This document shows, piece by piece, positions 7,227-14,286 of a DNA stretch of 64,000 nucleotides (positions are counted from its first letter, which is position 1; every line of letters begins with the position of its first letter). The stretch comes from Fibrobacter sp. UWEL (lineage in GTDB: Bacteria > Fibrobacterota > Fibrobacteria > Fibrobacterales > Fibrobacteraceae). The position numbers and the translations under genes were made by a program. The stretch lies in assembly GCF_900142535.1 (NCBI RefSeq), contig NZ_FRBE01000010.1, forward strand, positions 62,001 through 126,000. The letters run 5' to 3'. A model generated the notes under the pieces. The model ran no database searches. It saw only the letters and a program-made list of their open reading frames with translations, and was not told the origin of the DNA.

Positions 7227-7256
7227 CCCTCGCGGTGAATGCCGCGGGGGATTTTT
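7227..7256 (+). terminator. Rho-independent terminator after the PL11 gene
   Basis: CCCTCGCGG and CCGCGGGGG form a 9-bp stem (one G-T pair) with a 6-base loop, followed by ATTTTTAC. It separates the lyase gene from the promoter-leader element that starts about 10 bases later. Confidence 0.7.
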
Positions 7257-7261
7257 ACTGT

Positions 7262-7370
7262 TTATTTACAAAGTAACGCTTGCCAGAAAATAGACGAATG
7301 CTATATTCTATCCCGAGCGTTACGGAATAGTGCTCTGAAACACCAGTTTAAAACTGGTGTTTTTTCTTTT
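7262..7370 (+). promoter_or_regulatory. Promoter-leader-terminator element, copy A
   Basis: A sigma-70-type promoter reads TTGCCA (7280-7285), a 16-base spacer and TATATT (7302-7307). The predicted ~60-nt transcript starts near TCCCGAGCG. It can form a small hairpin (GAGC 7315-7318 with GCTC 7332-7335) holding the loop GTTACGGAATAGT, then a strong hairpin (CACCAGTT with AACTGGTG) and a T-rich run. AAGGAG of the following gene comes right after the T run, so the element looks like an attenuator for that gene or a small RNA ending just before it. Copy B at 13496 shares the upstream region, promoter and first loop but has an unrelated, still paired, second stem. Confidence 0.7.
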
Positions 7371-7388
7371 AAGGAGTACTATATCAAA

Positions 7389-8894
7389 ATGATAAACGAG
7401 CATGTACTGGAAATGCTCCATGCAGGGGAAGGCTTGCGTGTGGAGTATAAAAAGGCCAAAGATAAGTTGCCTAATAGTATCTTTGAAACTGTCTGTGCTT
7501 TTCTCAATTCAATAGGTGGGTTCATCTTCCTCGGTGTTGATGATGAAGGAACGGTTGTGGGCGTGAACCCTTTGGCGGTTCCTCAAATGAAAAAGGATTT
7601 GGTCAATCTCGCTCATAACACAACGAAAATAAATCCAGCATGCAATCTTTATCCAGAGGAATGTGTTGTTGAAGGGAAAACGATTATTGTTTGCCAAGTT
7701 CAAACAAGTTCTGAAATTCATCGTTGCAATGGGGAGGTTTACCTGCGTAGTGATGATGGTGATTTCGTCACCCGCAATACTAACGTTTTGTCAGGTGTTT
7801 TGACTCGTAAGTTGGGACTTTTTACAGAGAAACGCCCCATGCACGGATTCGACATGAATGATTTACGTCCGGAACTTTGCCGTAAGGCGCAAAATCTGAT
7901 GGCAGTAACGTTCAATAATCACCCATGGGCGGATCTTACCTTTGAAGAACTATTGCAATATGGCGGTTTCTATACCGTAGATCGAGATTCAAATGAGCGC
8001 TGCTTAAACCTTGCCGCTATCTTAATGTTTGGAACGGATGAGGCTATTTTCAGGGCCGATCCCGCATTACTTTTTGATTGCCTGTTACGCCGTGAAGATG
8101 AAATCCGTTACGATGACCGCGTCATGATTCGTACGAATCTAATTGAGACTTATGAGCAAGTCATGAATTTCATTTCCAAGCATTTGCCGGATCCATTCTA
8201 CCTGGAAGGGGATCAACGGATCAGTTTGCGTGGCAAAATTTTCCGTGAGGCGGTGTCTAACATCATTTCTCATCGGGAGTATATGCACGGGTCGCCTGGA
8301 AGAATTATGATTTACAAGGACCGTGTAGAATTTACCAATCCCTGTGTTCAGTACTACATTGATAGAATTACTCCGGCGAATCTGGAACCTTTCGCCCGTA
8401 ATCCAACTATCTGTAATTTCATGGTTCAGATGGGCCGTTTTGAACGCCTTGGATCTGGAGTACGTAATACATGGAAATACCTGCCCATCTATGCAAAAGG
8501 AGCTTTGCCAATCTTTGAGGAAACCAAATACGGCTTCAAATTGACCCTGCCTTTAGGCGTCACCCAGCAAGTCACCCAGCAAGTCACCCCCCAAGTCACC
8601 CCCCAAGTCACCCCCCAAGTCACCCCCCAAGTCACCCCCCATGATGCGGAGAATATTGATGAACGTATTTTGCATCTCATGAAAGTTATGAAAGGTTCTA
8701 TGAACCGTCAGGAAATAATGCGGGCTTTGTACTTGAGTGATCGTAAGAATTTTAGAGAAATGTACCTGAATCCCGCTATTTCTTTGGGATATGTTGAAGC
8801 GTCTGCTCCAGACAAGCCGAATAGTAGTACAAAAGTATATCGTTTAACAAGCTTGGGCGATCAGGTTTTGGAATCGCTTAGTGAGGAGATTTAG
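7389..8894 (+). CDS. AlbA/Schlafen-type ATP-binding protein with a PQVT tandem-repeat linker
   Basis: The start at 7389 is chosen because AAGGAG lies 12 bases upstream and family similarity begins at once. Residues ~10-120 form an AlbA_2/Schlafen-like domain (GLRVEYKKAK, FLNSIGGFIFLGVDDEG). Residues ~240-395 contain a GHKL-like ATPase half with FREAVSNIISHREY and GSPGRIMIY. A linker of seven 4-residue units (VTQQ, VTPQ) leads to a C-terminal winged-helix-like end (MNRQEIMRAL). Proteins of this build are widespread accessory regulators and some act in phage defence; the role here is unknown. It heads an AT-rich block and sits behind leader copy A. Confidence 0.8.
   Translation: MINEHVLEMLHAGEGLRVEYKKAKDKLPNSIFETVCAFLNSIGGFIFLGVDDEGTVVGVNPLAVPQMKKDLVNLAHNTTKINPACNLYPEECVVEGKTIIVCQVQTSSEIHRCNGEVYLRSDDGDFVTRNTNVLSGVLTRKLGLFTEKRPMHGFDMNDLRPELCRKAQNLMAVTFNNHPWADLTFEELLQYGGFYTVDRDSNERCLNLAAILMFGTDEAIFRADPALLFDCLLRREDEIRYDDRVMIRTNLIETYEQVMNFISKHLPDPFYLEGDQRISLRGKIFREAVSNIISHREYMHGSPGRIMIYKDRVEFTNPCVQYYIDRITPANLEPFARNPTICNFMVQMGRFERLGSGVRNTWKYLPIYAKGALPIFEETKYGFKLTLPLGVTQQVTQQVTPQVTPQVTPQVTPQVTPHDAENIDERILHLMKVMKGSMNRQEIMRALYLSDRKNFREMYLNPAISLGYVEASAPDKPNSSTKVYRLTSLGDQVLESLSEEI
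8559..8642 (+). repeat. 12-bp coding tandem repeat (7 units)
   Basis: Two units of GTCACCCAGCAA, four of GTCACCCCCCAA and a last GTCACCCCCCAT follow each other without gaps inside the ATP-binding protein gene. Each encodes VTQQ, VTPQ or VTPH, so gain or loss of units keeps the frame and only changes linker length. Confidence 0.95.
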
Positions 8895-8925
8895 GCGAAT
8901 TAAATCAAATAAACATGCTTCTTTA

Positions 8926-8955
8926 TTGACTTGAATAAGGTTTTTAAGCTATATT
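8926..8955 (+). promoter_or_regulatory. Sigma-70-type promoter for structured RNA copy 1
   Basis: TTGACT (8926-8931), an 18-base spacer and TATATT (8950-8955). Transcription would start near 8962, just before the conserved 5' segment of the RNA candidate. Confidence 0.6.
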
Positions 8956-8961
8956 CAAGGT

Positions 8962-9190
8962 AAATAGAGAGTTTTGCTCTCGTTCTCTACCTGGAAACTT
9001 AGACACTTTTCAAAACACAGAGAATGGGACGAACGCTCGCGTCTGTCGGCTTTTATGTCGGCAACGTTTTGCTGCACGCATTGCGTGCTTGCAAGCGGCC
9101 TTTATGGGGCGCGGGTTGTTTGTATTTATTTGTGTAAGGCAGTCTAAGGCCCCAGGTAGATAGATGCATCAACCCCTCCGCCCTTTTTTT
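8962..9190 (+). ncRNA. Candidate structured RNA, copy 1
   Basis: This lies in the 563-base gap between the ATP-binding protein and the type III methylase; I see no convincing protein gene there. A two-part closing stem joins the ends: CTACCTGG (8987-8994) with CCAGGTAG (9152-9159), then inward CTTAGAC (8998-9004) with GTCTAAG (9142-9148). Inside are further hairpins such as GCACGC with GCGTGC around 9074-9088. A run of seven to eight T lies about 20 bases after the closing stem. The first ~55 bases recur in copy 2 at 9237. It does not match tmRNA, 4.5S, RNase P or any riboswitch I know; a 6S-like role is not excluded. Confidence 0.55.
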
Positions 9191-9234
9191 CAATTTAATC
9201 GTGGTTTGGTAATGTAGAACGAGCAAGACTCTTG

Positions 9235-9402
9235 GTGAGTTTTGCTCTTGTTCTCTACCTGGAACTTAGACACTTTCAACACGAAGAATAAGACAAATCT
9301 CGGAAGCCTATGGATGTCATGGGCGTATTGTACCCTGGGCGGATTGTTTCCTAGGGGTACTTCCGTCGTTTGTTTATGATTTGAAAATGATGTGCCAGGT
9401 TG
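9235..9402 (+). ncRNA. Candidate structured RNA, copy 2
   Basis: Bases 9237-9289 repeat the 5' segment of copy 1 with a few changes. ACCTGG (9257-9262) can pair with CCAGGT (9395-9400). Inside, ACAAA plus CGGAA (9293-9305) pair with TTCCG plus TTTGT (9361-9373), enclosing two hairpins, CCTATG with CATGGG and GTACCC with GGGTAC, in a three-way junction. The rest of the sequence differs from copy 1 although the overall plan is alike. No clear promoter of its own is seen. It ends about 55 bases before the methylase start, so it may be a leader of the restriction operon. Confidence 0.5.
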
Positions 9403-9457
9403 CTCTGAATACGGGCTGAACTCAGGTTCAACCTTTAATCCTCAAGGAGTGGGAGCG

Positions 9458-11068
9458 ATGGAAAAGACAACTGGCAATATTGGTGAAACAATCAAGTGTT
9501 TGGTTGACGATATCGAAAAAAGAGTCGTTGATAAAATTCTTGAGCCGACAAATGCGGAACTTTTGAAAAAGTTAATCAGTAACGCGGATTCTTTAGACGA
9601 AGCCATTGCCATCGCTGAATTGGGAACCACCTATAAACGTACGGGATTCCATTTTGATAAGCGTTTAGATGTCAAGTGCACCAACGATATAAAGTACTTC
9701 AAGAAAAACGAAGATTTGAGTATTCATACGGACGATGGCCCGATACATAAGTTGATTATTGGGGACAACTATGAAGCCTTGCAGAATTTGCTAATCCAGT
9801 ATAGAGGGATGGTCGATGTCATTTACATTGATCCTCCGTATGGAAAGGATAGCATGGGTGTTTCTGCGGAAACCAATTACCAGAATGCAATTACTAGGGA
9901 TAACTTGCTTTCGATGCTGTATCCGAGACTGGTTTTGGCGAAACAATTGCTTTCTAAAGGTGGTGTAATTTTCTGTAGTATTGATGATAGAAATCAGGCT
10001 TATATAAAATGCTTATTTGATGAAATATTTGAAGAACGAAATTTCATCGCAACGTATCTTTGGAAAAAAACAGATACACCTCCGTCTTTGTCCAAGAAGG
10101 TTAGAAAAAAATATGAGTATGTGCTATGTTATGGAAATGGCGTAAGCAAGTCCCATAAATTCGCACAGGGAAAAATAGATGGCGGTGATGCGCCGCTTTT
10201 AAATTCAGGAAATGCTGAAAAGAAAATAACCTTCCCTGCAGGAACTGTTCGGTTTAATATACCGGATGGAACGTACTCCATGAATTCAAATAGAAAGGTG
10301 CAACTACATGGATCCGTTGTGGTAAAAGACGGATTGAATAAAAATTCATTTGATGCTACAGGACCATGGAAATGGAATCAGGAAACTCTTGATGATGAAG
10401 TAAAAGAGGGTACTTATTTTCTTGTGAAATCGGAAAAGTTTTCTGTGAGATTCCAACGTGAAAATACTGATTCTACCAAGGCACCTCAAAATAACATTAA
10501 TTCTAAACTTGGTGTGGGAACTAATGAAGATGGAGCTAAACAAATTGAAAAGATTTTGAAGAAAGATGCCTTTGATAATCCGAAGCCCGTATCACTATTG
10601 AATTTTTTGATTGAAATGGTAAATATGGGTGATGATATAACCATATTGGATTTCTTTGCTGGTAGCGGAACTACCGGACATGCAGTTCTTGACTTGAATA
10701 AACAAGATGGTGGCAAGAGAAGTTTCATCCTGTGTCAGGTCAATGAAATTAATCCGACCAATCCCAATGGAATCGCTCTCGATGTTACTACCAAGCGCTT
10801 GAAGCGTGTTATGACCGGTGAGTGCTATGACGGCTCTAAGAATTTCAAGTGGGCTCAGGAAAATGAGCCTTATGGCGGAAACCTTGATGTTTACGAAATC
10901 GATTCTGTCGCAAATTTTGAATTCACGGAAGGAAAGACTCCTTTCGATGTAATTGACGAAACATTGTACGGAAAGGAAAAGTTCTCTACGTTACAGGAAA
11001 AAACGGAGTGGGTTTGTTCAAATTTCCAGAATACGCAAAAAGTTCTCCGTGAAAAAGGGGAGGACTAA
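9458..11068 (+). CDS. mod: Type III restriction-modification DNA methyltransferase (Mod)
   Basis: The ATG at 9458 follows AAGGAG with an 8-base gap; the frame is open further up but without such a site. The 536-residue protein has the amino-methyltransferase motif DPPYGKDSMG near residue 125 and the AdoMet-binding motif FFAGSGTTGHAV near residue 400. This order (IV before I) marks the beta class used by type III Mod subunits, which methylate N6 of adenine and carry the target-recognition region between the two motifs. The Res gene starts three bases after the stop, so both are one operon. Base composition is AT-richer than in flanking core genes, which suggests horizontal transfer. Confidence 0.92.
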   Translation: MEKTTGNIGETIKCLVDDIEKRVVDKILEPTNAELLKKLISNADSLDEAIAIAELGTTYKRTGFHFDKRLDVKCTNDIKYFKKNEDLSIHTDDGPIHKLIIGDNYEALQNLLIQYRGMVDVIYIDPPYGKDSMGVSAETNYQNAITRDNLLSMLYPRLVLAKQLLSKGGVIFCSIDDRNQAYIKCLFDEIFEERNFIATYLWKKTDTPPSLSKKVRKKYEYVLCYGNGVSKSHKFAQGKIDGGDAPLLNSGNAEKKITFPAGTVRFNIPDGTYSMNSNRKVQLHGSVVVKDGLNKNSFDATGPWKWNQETLDDEVKEGTYFLVKSEKFSVRFQRENTDSTKAPQNNINSKLGVGTNEDGAKQIEKILKKDAFDNPKPVSLLNFLIEMVNMGDDITILDFFAGSGTTGHAVLDLNKQDGGKRSFILCQVNEINPTNPNGIALDVTTKRLKRVMTGECYDGSKNFKWAQENEPYGGNLDVYEIDSVANFEFTEGKTPFDVIDETLYGKEKFSTLQEKTEWVCSNFQNTQKVLREKGED

Positions 11069-11071
11069 GGT

Positions 11072-13150
11072 ATGCTTCAGGAAGCCAAAGACCTCCAGTG
11101 CAATGCTGTATCCAGATTGATGGATGTTGTTGACAAAAAGCATGTTGTTACATTCAGGGCGCCTACGGGAAGTGGCAAAACAAGAATGATGTCCGATTTC
11201 ATGAATCGGGTATTAGCGAATAATGACGATGTTGTCTTTTTAGTCAGTACCCTTTCCAAGGGAAATCTTGCAAAGCAAAATTATGACGTGTTTCAGGAAT
11301 GTGCGGATACAGGCGTATTTCCGAACTTGAATCCTTTTTTGATTTCTTCGGAAGCGGGTGAAGAAGAAAGTGTCTTTATCCCTACGGATTATAACGTATA
11401 TGTGCTGGCTCGAGATCTGTACAAAGATGGTAGCCGCCTAAAACAGGGTGCATTGGAAAATTTTCTAAGGACAATGACCGCGTATTTTCTGGGTCAGGGC
11501 TTAAACAAGAAAATTTACCTCATTAAGGACGAATGTCATCAAGCGACCAATAATTTGGATTCGCTGTCCTCGGAATACTTTTCTAAGACCATCATGATGT
11601 CTGCCACGCCCAATCTTAAACGTGGACAAAAACCGGATGTGGTCATATCGGATGAAGATGCTCAAGATGTCAAACTGATCAAGAAAGTTGTTTGGGGAGC
11701 TGAAGAAGATACTGTTGAAAATGCATTTCAAAAATTTGAAGAGGTTAAAGAAAAGTATCGCAATTTGTTGGGAGTAAATCCCTGCCTCATCATCCAGATT
11801 TCAAATAAGGAAAAGGCAGAAGAGGAATGGACCAATATAGAATCCATTTTGAATAAGCCTGAATACCAGCATCTCAAGTGGATGAGTATTGTAGATAAAA
11901 AGGAGAATTGCAAGACTAACGATAAGGTTGGCAAACTCTCTCTTGATAAATGGAAAGACTATGCAAAGTCAAAAGCATCAACAATTGATGTAATCATCTT
12001 CAAGATGGTGATATCTGAGGGATGGGATATTCCTCGAGCTTGCATGCTGTATCAGGTTCGCGATGTGAAAAGTAAGCAGCTGGATGAACAGGTCATGGGG
12101 CGTGTTCGTCGAAATCCAAGGCTAATGGATTTTGAAACACTTACTGCGGAAGCTCAGGAGTTGGCGATGACCGCTTGGGTCTGGGGGATTGTTCCGGAAA
12201 CTGCAACAACACGACGTGTTAAATTGTATGGAGATGGTGGTTCTGCGATTGTTTCCGAATTAAAAGTAAAAACAACCGTGTTAAAACCTCTTACTCAGCG
12301 AAAAGGTTTTGATATAGAATCATTTTTAGCCAATCAAAAAGACCCTGTTGCATTCAAGAGCATTTTTGAGTTGTATTCAAAACTGCGGAATTGTAACGAG
12401 GAAATAAAAAGACTGTGTTATAGCTATGCTGGCAGCAGTGTTCAAAGATGGAATAAGTTCTGTGAACATCTAGATGCCATTCAAAAGGAATACGATACTT
12501 TCATTTGTAACTATGACGAAAGTATGGATCTTCGCAGGGATGATCAAGGAAATGAAGTTTTATCTTCTTTCCCGTCGAGTTCATCTTATGTTGAAAATGG
12601 CAATTTCAATAATATTGATGATTGGGTATGGAAACGAGCGGAAAATACAAATAAATTCTCTTTTGATAGTGAAGCCGAACGTGAATGGTGTTCTGTTTTG
12701 CGGAAACTTGCTCAAGAGGGCTTTGCTGCAAGTGTTGACATTGCAAAAGAATTGGAGCCGGCGCTGTTTAACGACAAAAAGGTGGAACTCAAGCATCTTT
12801 GGGGTAAGAACTTTATTGAAATGTCTGAAATCAAATTTGAATATTATTCAAATGGCTCCCATTTTTCATATCCAGATTTTGTAATGAAAGACGGTTTTGG
12901 TAGGATTCATTTATTTGAGGTCAAAAGCGTGAATAAATCTTCATCTCTTGCTGTTGACAGTGATCAGTATGAAGAAAAAATTTGTGCATTGAAGGATTGC
13001 TATAAGTATGCTTCTATTAAGACGGGACACTTTTTTTATATGCCTCTTTTAAAAGAAGATGTATGGCAAATTACTCGTTTTGTAAATGGAGTTGAAGATA
13101 GCATTACTGTAGAGAGGCTGACCGATTCATTTCGGGAGGGAAAAGGGTAG
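11072..13150 (+). CDS. res: Type III restriction enzyme helicase/endonuclease subunit (Res), compact
   Basis: Walker A APTGSGKT (residues 30-37), the DEAD-box-like KDECHQA, MSATPN and the arginine-finger motif QVMGRVRRNPR define a superfamily 2 helicase/translocase. Near the C-terminus YPDF (about 599-602) and FEVKS (about 613-617) form a PD-(D/E)xK nuclease site. Together they mark the Res subunit, which with Mod translocates from unmethylated sites and cuts DNA. At 692 residues it is shorter than the usual 900-1000. The ATG lies three bases after the mod stop, so translation may be coupled. All core motifs look intact, so the system could be active. Confidence 0.9.
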   Translation: MLQEAKDLQCNAVSRLMDVVDKKHVVTFRAPTGSGKTRMMSDFMNRVLANNDDVVFLVSTLSKGNLAKQNYDVFQECADTGVFPNLNPFLISSEAGEEESVFIPTDYNVYVLARDLYKDGSRLKQGALENFLRTMTAYFLGQGLNKKIYLIKDECHQATNNLDSLSSEYFSKTIMMSATPNLKRGQKPDVVISDEDAQDVKLIKKVVWGAEEDTVENAFQKFEEVKEKYRNLLGVNPCLIIQISNKEKAEEEWTNIESILNKPEYQHLKWMSIVDKKENCKTNDKVGKLSLDKWKDYAKSKASTIDVIIFKMVISEGWDIPRACMLYQVRDVKSKQLDEQVMGRVRRNPRLMDFETLTAEAQELAMTAWVWGIVPETATTRRVKLYGDGGSAIVSELKVKTTVLKPLTQRKGFDIESFLANQKDPVAFKSIFELYSKLRNCNEEIKRLCYSYAGSSVQRWNKFCEHLDAIQKEYDTFICNYDESMDLRRDDQGNEVLSSFPSSSSYVENGNFNNIDDWVWKRAENTNKFSFDSEAEREWCSVLRKLAQEGFAASVDIAKELEPALFNDKKVELKHLWGKNFIEMSEIKFEYYSNGSHFSYPDFVMKDGFGRIHLFEVKSVNKSSSLAVDSDQYEEKICALKDCYKYASIKTGHFFYMPLLKEDVWQITRFVNGVEDSITVERLTDSFREGKG

Positions 13151-13495: not shown

Positions 13496-13602
13496 ATTAT
13501 TTACAAATTAACGCTTGCCAAGAAATGGCGTAATGCTATATTCATCCCGAGCGCTACGAAATAGTCTCCGAAGCATCCGAAAAGAATCGGATGCTTTTCT
13601 GT
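13496..13602 (+). promoter_or_regulatory. Promoter-leader-terminator element, copy B
   Basis: The promoter is TTGCCA (13515-13520), a 16-base spacer and TATATT (13537-13542), with the same TTATTTACAAA upstream as copy A. The leader has GAG (13549-13551) pairing with CTC (13566-13568) around a loop close to that of copy A (GCTACGAAATAG). Then AAGCATCCGA pairs with TCGGATGCTT (10 bp, 6-base loop) before CTTTTC. The second stem differs from copy A at almost every position yet stays paired. The next gene starts about 70 bases later. Confidence 0.7.
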
Positions 13603-13670
13603 TATGTGTTTTTCCTTTAATGGTGTATTGTGCCTTGGAGGAAAACGGAAAAAGTAGACAAGGAGACTGT

Positions 13671-13982
13671 ATGGTCAAAGTTGCAAAAGATGTAAATTTA
13701 AGGTATATTGTAAGCCAGAGGTTTCCCGTGTGCCAAATATCCATGAATATTCCAGAAGAGGTATTGTTTGATACCCACATGAACAAGGAACGTGCACTTT
13801 CTTTTGCAAAGTGTGCCGTTGCTCTGGAATTTTATAGAAATCTTGGAGTTTCTGTTGGGTATTGCGCTGAGATTGCGGGAATGACCGAAGAGGACTTTGT
13901 AAAGTATCTCGGTAGCAAGGGCATTTCCATATTCCATTTTGAAAACGAAAATGAGTTTATGGAAGAACTGAAAAATGCGTAG
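13671..13982 (+). CDS. UPF0175 family antitoxin
   Basis: This 103-residue protein fits the UPF0175 group: ISMNIPEEVLFD at the N-terminal third, then AVALEFYRNLGVSVGYCAEIAGM, the usual helix-turn-helix-like core, and the acidic C-terminus. Such proteins neutralise DUF3368/PIN-type RNases. The ATG at 13671 has AAGGAG five bases upstream, while longer in-frame starts would read into leader copy B. It overlaps the toxin gene by 8 bases (the ATG of the toxin lies inside the last codons), the standard layout of a coupled toxin-antitoxin operon. Confidence 0.8.
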   Translation: MVKVAKDVNLRYIVSQRFPVCQISMNIPEEVLFDTHMNKERALSFAKCAVALEFYRNLGVSVGYCAEIAGMTEEDFVKYLGSKGISIFHFENENEFMEELKNA

Positions 13983-14286
13983 AGTTGTAATTAATTCTAC
14001 CCCATTAATCATTCTTGGAAATTTAAACCTTTTGAACGTACTTCACCGTTTGTATGGTGTGGTGTCTGTTCCGCAGGCCGTTATTAGAGAGATAACGGCA
14101 AAGAAAACTGCCAAATTTCTAGGTTTAACTGTAACTGGAACATTAGGAGTCTTGCTTAAAGCGAAATCAAATGGAATTATCGGTGAAGTAAAACCTATTA
14201 TGGATGAGATGAATCGTCTTTCTTTTTATGTTAGCGAAGGTGTTCGTAATATGGTTTTAACGCAGGCTGGAGAGTTGGATAAGTGA
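13975..14286 (+). pseudogene. DUF3368/PIN-type toxin with an in-frame internal deletion
   Basis: The N-terminal strand-helix (VVINSTPLIILGNLNLL, SVPQAVIREI) and the C-terminal part (FLGLTVTGTLGVLLKAK, AGE) are typical of DUF3368 PIN-domain toxins. In that family about 50-65 residues separate these parts and hold the LDEGE and later DD/DE positions that bind metal. Here REI runs straight into AKKTAKFLGL, so the centre of the RNase site is absent while the frame is kept. The 103-residue product is probably inactive as an RNase; it might still bind the antitoxin and the operator. It overlaps both the antitoxin gene and the following phosphoesterase gene. Confidence 0.7.

Follow-up and report, generated by a model that had tools for sequence, protein, structure and literature searches.

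A structured-RNA family with locus-private pairing codes upstream of restriction-modification genes in Fibrobacteraceae, and its possible role as a self-limiting attenuator leader

We examined a DNA stretch of 64,000 nt from Fibrobacter sp. UWEL (assembly GCF_900142535.1, contig NZ_FRBE01000010.1, positions 62,001-126,000, forward strand), called the window below; all positions are counted within it. A 563-base gap upstream of its type III restriction-modification (RM) genes holds two related RNA units, u1 and u2, which are laid out with their neighbors as follows.

8926-8955, + strand: promoter of u1, -35 box TTGACT at 8926-8931 and -10 box TATATT at 8950-8955 (sequence; -10-like box in homologues)
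8962-9192, + strand: unit 1 (u1), structured RNA of about 230 nt (family in 79/80 genomes of the genus; covariation; fold z -5.5)
8967-8985, + strand: u1 5' hairpin with the "seed" GAGTTTTGCTCTCGTTC (alignment, sequence, seed-antiseed comparison)
8979-9028, + strand: 5' stem-loop of the terminated fold, arms 8979-8987/9020-9028 (helix 1: 98.3% paired, 3 two-sided pairs)
8987-8994, + strand: P1 5' strand, partner 9152-9159 (6/6 pairs vary on both sides, 98.7% paired)
8998-9004, + strand: P2 5' strand, partner 9142-9148 (7/7 pairs vary on both sides, 96.0% paired)
9015-9019, + strand: P3 5' strand ACACA, partner TGTGT 9131-9135 (5/5 pairs vary on both sides, 81.9% paired)
9036-9041, + strand: P4 5' strand CTCGCG, putative antiterminator, partner CGCGGG 9110-9115 (100% paired in 39 sequences)
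9107-9183, + strand: 3' stem-loop/intrinsic terminator, arms 9107-9118/9170-9183 and 9122-9129/9160-9168 (helices 5-6; covariance model R1)
9184-9190, + strand: T7 tract closing u1 (sequence; T-run after the stem in aligned homologues)
9217-9253, + strand: u2 5' hairpin, antiseed 9217-9231 paired to u2's own seed copy 9237-9253
9255-9283, + strand: u2 barcode loop, P1 9255-9262, P2 9265-9271, P3 9279-9283 (complementary to the u1 3' loop; covaries)
9302-9364, + strand: u2 3' domain, hairpins closed by GGAAG/CTTCC (predicted fold, z -3.9)
9451-9455, + strand: Shine-Dalgarno sequence GGGAG of mod (sequence)
9458-11068, + strand: type III methyltransferase, mod (PF01555, 1.7e-29)
11072-13150, + strand: type III restriction subunit, res (PF04851, 1.5e-12)

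The loop of the u1 5' stem-loop (8979-9028) contains the 5' strands of P1, P2 and P3, and that of the u1 3' stem-loop holds the 3' strands of P3 (9131-9135), P2 (9142-9148) and P1 (9152-9159); the u2 antiseed (9217-9231) is complementary to the u1 5' seed. The gene upstream of the RNAs (7239-8894) has SLFN_AlbA_2, HATPase_c_4 and Fic-like_C domains, with an in-frame VTPQ/VTQQ repeat run at about 8560-8640. Directly after the RM operon, at 13515-14286, genes for a UPF0175 protein and then a DUF3368 protein form a toxin-antitoxin-like pair.

A first-pass annotation, made from sequence alone, had proposed two tandem units with a shared 5' segment, each able to close a long-range stem of its own. 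Both units lie where it had placed them and the 5' repeat is real. The stems it gave for u1, CTACCTGG/CCAGGTAG (8987-8994 with 9152-9159) and CTTAGAC/GTCTAAG (8998-9004 with 9142-9148), are present in the minimum-free-energy (MFE) fold and covary across 39 homologues, and its proposal of a promoter for u1 was upheld (TTGACT-18-TATATT, 8926-8955). The boundaries required correction: u1 runs from 8962 to 9192 and is closed by an intrinsic terminator that had been missed, a GC-rich stem with T7 after it, and u2 begins at about 9215. The claim that each unit closes by its own stem held only in part, u2 being no independent closed structure and carrying instead a copy of the u1 5' half. The long stem claimed for u2, ACCTGG/CCAGGT (partner 9395-9400), is unsupported; apart from the window it could be recognised, by eye, in the closest homologue (L022) alone, and was dropped for that reason. 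The checks it had suggested on homologues in Fibrobacterota, on covariation of the long stems and on matches before defence genes were positive, with copies found throughout the genus and the defence-gene matches far above chance.

The distribution and novelty of the RNA were assessed by several searches. The Rfam 15 covariance models gave no match at either threshold (best sub-threshold E 3.6) and a tRNA/tmRNA search found none, so that a known RNA class was ruled out, as the first-pass annotation had supposed. A BLASTN search with u1 recovered relatives from 24 of 61 genomes, every one of the same genus. Alignments were made of 39 full units (alignment A1) and of their 3' stem-loop (alignment A2; covariance model R1), and the covariance search placed the element in 79 of 80 genus genomes, with 1-22 copies in each; by number of matches, the source genome has 10 and other genomes reach about 20-30. 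Extended to the phylum, the covariance search matched 90 of 168 genomes, belonging to 5 of 41 genera, all in Fibrobacteraceae; a wider distribution was rejected because the matches were confined to this one family. Motif matches in GTDB contigs were nearly all from Fibrobacter, including F. intestinalis ATCC 43854. The motif also occurred in short contigs of metagenome-assembled genomes (MAGs) labelled Paludibacteraceae, Bacteroidales, Bacilli or Lachnospiraceae (L129, L131, L139, L178, L197, L207), and these are probably mis-binned Fibrobacter. A pattern search of IMG/VR viral contigs and BLAST of plasmids and phages gave no match, and a mobile or viral origin was rejected on this ground. No prior description of such an RNA was found in the open-access literature searched (subscription literature was outside the scope). 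We therefore regard the family of u1 as a new one among structured RNAs, without an entry in Rfam 15.

The folding energy of u1 (MFE -85.7 kcal/mol, versus -64.1 in 200 dinucleotide shuffles, z -5.5) and of u2 (about 9215-9456, z -3.9) is lower than that of shuffled sequence. Six helices were scored on A1 against shuffles and against slid versions of the helices. Paired cells amounted to 95.2% (82.7% shuffled), 25 pairs showed two-sided changes (15.9 shuffled) and 218 cells were two-sided (66 shuffled), giving a covariation score of 0.425 versus 0.193 for shuffles and no more than 0.118 for slid versions; in P1, P2 and P3 there were up to six pair types per pair. Since the homologues are related, the shuffle controls and counts are not strict probabilities. 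P4 (consensus CUCRCG/CGYGRG) reads CUCACG/CGUGAG in the family and is 100% paired, its sole two-sided change being the copy in this window; in minimal copies it is, by eye, a direct simple hairpin. These helices cannot all form at once: P1-P2-P3-P4 make up one set and the 5' stem-loop plus terminator the other, and P4 overlaps the terminator 5' arm, which meets the criterion of a mutually exclusive antiterminator. When each was forced, the P4 fold averaged -90.5 and the terminator fold -89.9 kcal/mol over the 39 units, a gap of 0.6. We take the covarying long-range stems and both alternative folds of u1 as shown. G.U pairs are conserved in both stems, which points to selection at the level of RNA rather than DNA.

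Matches such as the u1 promoter-like TTGACT-18-TATATT are expected 1.1 times by chance in a region of this size; among 40 homologues, 38 have a -10-like box on their upstream side. The criterion of an intrinsic terminator between promoter and gene is met, with helix and U-run conserved. No promoter was found for u2, and none of the sigma-70 type on the minus strand at 8880-9480. Some u2 units (L025, L037, L053) appear by eye to close with their own terminator, GGCGAGGAGTGAGTCGGCTCCCCGCC-TTTCTTTTT, upstream of which an ACTCGCC could serve as an antiterminator and repeat the u1 plan.

A terminator/antiterminator architecture adjoining start codons, with strongly conserved segments such as GTTTGYGTTTAT, could also be that of a metabolite or ion riboswitch, in which a ligand bound by a conserved aptamer would tip the balance between the two folds. 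We consider this highly improbable. The two alternative folds account for the conserved segments, which supply their strands; the helices that stand out most are, unlike an aptamer, hypervariable and private to each locus; and the targets (all RM types, lipoproteins) have no common metabolic pathway.

The private character of P1-P3 was assessed by pairing energies within and between loci. Within six genomes, 63 of 65 copies had a 3' loop that paired best with the 5' domain of the same copy (-32.7 versus -14.3 kcal/mol); nine copies were excluded where P4 was not recognised automatically, and of the two exceptions one (L069a) probably stems from a misplaced 5' domain. At tandem loci u2 carries a copy of the u1 5' loop without a 3' partner of its own. 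Pairing between this loop and the u1 3' loop averages -27.8 kcal/mol within a locus, versus -15.3 with other loci; over 37 tandem loci 90.9% of the cells between the u2 5' loop and u1 3' loop were paired, and the covariation score was 0.443 versus 0.181 for shuffles and at most 0.13 for slid versions. The u1 3' loop thus shows cognate-specific complementarity to the 5' loops of both u1 and u2, meeting the criterion of a complementary RNA from the same locus; the criterion of an opposite-strand antisense RNA is not met, the complementarity lying within same-strand transcripts. Some of the matching between u1 and u2 may represent recent duplication, because 4 of the 7 P2 pairs are invariant among tandem loci. 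At one chromosomal site (L106a compared with L086a/L041) the P1 and P3 codes have changed jointly in the u1 5', u1 3' and u2 5' segments within near-identical surroundings, the barcode loops differing at 21% of positions versus 6% elsewhere; at a second site the figures were 22% and 4%. This faster divergence is clear in these two same-site pairs only, and three other pairs showed little contrast. P1-P3 are locus-private barcodes, and the three segments that carry them covary.

Downstream genes were surveyed for the association with RM. In five genomes, 26 of 62 copies were followed by a DNA-methyltransferase domain within 2.2 kb, where 0.21 were expected; taken from the side of the genes, 27 of 55 matches to three DNA-methyltransferase families lay no more than 2.2 kb downstream of a copy and 28 of the 55 methyltransferase genes were without the RNA. 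The first genes behind 67 copies matched the Pfam families N6_Mtase (9), DNA_methylase (8), N6_N4_Mtase (7), Fib_succ_major (7), Eco57I (5), and EcoRI_methylase, Tsp45I, ISP, D12 and HsdM_N (3 each), where one protein may match several families. Counted by hand, about 35 of the 67 precede RM or defence genes, and the others genes for secreted proteins or lipoproteins, or small operons of unknown function; part of the gene assignments is based on motifs. Of 40 tandem pairs whose downstream genes were visible, 39 stand before RM (37 by motif, L027 and L036 by inspection; the exception is L119b). Behind single units lie RM genes of types I, II, IIG, ISP and III, or secreted-protein or lipoprotein genes. 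The RM association of the family is therefore established; the family is not RM-only, though its tandem form is nearly so. The first-pass suggestion of control of, or partnership with, the restriction genes is supported within the limit that about half of the copies precede secreted-protein, lipoprotein or unknown genes. Single units before FISUMP or other lipoprotein genes were noted at L028 (u1 near 1529-1776), L056, L069, L085, L090 and L118, where a link to RM is unexplained. At L092, L104, L113, L119 and L125, two element copies 1.4-3 kb apart form RNA-gene-RNA-gene arrays.

Comparison of loci indicates exchange of the genes behind the RNA. L046 and L047, on two contigs of one MAG (G032, C169 and C25), are 100% identical over 1,965 bases, a stretch that contains u1-u2 and reaches the first codons of the first RM gene; beyond this breakpoint at the start codon lie different RM genes, and then identical sequence again. 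It seems that one MAG here combines two strains, which have different RM cassettes at a single locus. In L027 and L031, too, the sequences part at the start codon. From these breakpoints we infer that the RNA leader is a standing platform behind which RM genes change. Near-identical u1-u2 copies also lie at unrelated sites (L042, L043, L044), and therefore the module itself also moves.

Such swapping directly behind the element, its near-identical copies at unrelated sites, and the clustering of some copies 1.4-3 kb apart could be taken to represent a DNA-level recombination or integration platform, attC-like, that exchanges RM cassettes, with RNA structure incidental. We give this very little credence. 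The conserved G.U pairs, promoter-like boxes, intrinsic terminators and Shine-Dalgarno-to-start spacing indicate a transcript; copies are mostly scattered singles with a co-directional gene downstream; no integrase was noticed adjoining copies (without a systematic search); and homologous recombination over the conserved leader would be enough for the swapping. Equally remote is the explanation that the RNA is a working part of defence (sensor, decoy or antitoxin-like RNA) and not a regulator. In its favor, the tandem form is closely tied to RM (39/40), and fast-evolving private barcodes would suit conflict with phage RNAs; against it, one family serves unrelated proteins (types I, II, IIG, ISP, III) and lipoproteins, and RM genes are exchanged behind an unchanged RNA, which argues against any protein-specific fit.

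The reading we favor, by a modest margin over the alternatives taken together, is a bistable attenuator leader with locus-specific RNA pairing, which probably exerts self-limiting feedback on RM expression. In this model u1 would be the 5' leader of the RM transcription unit. In fold A, the 5' domain would pair with the 3' loop through P1-P2-P3 and P4 would capture the terminator 5' arm, allowing read-through into u2 and the RM genes; in fold B, the 5' domain would close upon itself as a stem-loop, the terminator would form, and u1 would be released as an RNA of about 230 nt. Attenuation fits because the anatomy is that of a promoter, a bistable leader, a terminator and, at single-unit loci, a start codon in most cases 50-100 nt farther downstream. 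That the switch is transcription attenuation is inferred, there being no transcript data on termination or read-through. The repetition of the private barcode in u2 suggests that terminated u1 recognises nascent u1 or u2 of its own locus: terminated u1 would expose its 3' barcode loop, which may pair with the nascent u1 5' domain or the u2 copy of the same locus only, and this pairing would favor termination (negative feedback). RM expression would then be high upon arrival of the locus, when u1 is absent, and be damped as u1 builds up. Feedback in trans, and its sign, remain a hypothesis resting upon complementarity and covariation only. Against the RM-timing model stands the fact that many copies precede lipoprotein or unknown genes, where RM timing is no argument.

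Many loci have, after the terminator, an antiseed that can pair with the u1 5' end (mean 13.5 of 17 pairs versus 12.0 for shuffles; at least 14 pairs in 46 of 85), and the seed-antiseed duplex has a mean z of -1.7, with 20 of 42 loci in the lowest ~5% of shuffles. The antiseed might close the read-through leader in cis, or it might act on translation. A rival explanation built upon the latter is that u1 is mainly a trans-acting small RNA for translation, whose 5' seed would pair with the antiseed before the Shine-Dalgarno sequence and open or block ribosome binding, the barcode giving locus specificity. The presence of the antiseed in many loci, with pairing above shuffles, is in its favor. 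We regard it as unlikely: the antiseed excess is absent at many loci, the antiseed may merely be the outer helix that closes the read-through leader in cis, and sequestration of the Shine-Dalgarno sequence is not above that of control genes. A translational switch by such sequestration had been tried in MFE folds (62% paired versus 55% of control genes); the effect was weak and the switch was not supported.

The attenuator reading has partial precedents. Plasmid attenuators of the pT181/pIP501 type are controlled by antisense RNA. Like them, the Fibrobacter leader has mutually exclusive terminator and antiterminator folds, loop-loop recognition would give the specificity, and a small RNA could tip the nascent leader to termination. 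Unlike them, its pairing partner would be the leader's own terminated RNA, from the same strand; the RNA is chromosomal and multi-copy with a separate barcode per locus, its targets are RM and surface-protein genes, and it has no sequence match to a known family. The EcoRI and Eco29kI RM systems are under RNA control through reverse-strand transcripts (PMC3874152). These share with the present case an RM operon under RNA-based control, putative here, but are reverse transcripts overlapping a particular RM gene, whereas the Fibrobacter RNA is a conserved structured upstream RNA common to unrelated RM types. T-box and similar leaders regulate by terminator and antiterminator; the conserved attenuator architecture is alike, but the present family lacks both an Rfam match and a known ligand, and its recognition helices are hypervariable. 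Type II RM systems are regulated by controller (C) proteins. The Fibrobacter element would solve the same problem of RM timing on entry, by an RNA and not a protein, and without being bound to one RM type.

It has long been asked how an incoming RM system secures protection of the host genome before it starts to cut, and the answers to date have been mainly controller proteins, along with a few antisense RNAs. What is new here is that a single unlisted RNA family, spread over a bacterial family, precedes RM operons of every type and has an orthogonal base-pairing code at each locus. A bolder reading, which we offer as no more than a possibility, is a lineage-wide RNA operating system for RM: each RNA-bearing RM locus in Fibrobacteraceae would use its private barcode to sense its own copy number or the time since arrival and to set RM expression, and new RM genes would be inserted at the start codon, behind an RNA platform that stays in place. 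If the attenuator model is true, it would provide a general, protein-independent control of RM, and dozens of natural RNA switches, orthogonal to one another, would be available ready-made. Fibrobacter are major cellulose degraders of the rumen, and it is likely that their RM systems hinder DNA transfer and genetic work in these organisms.
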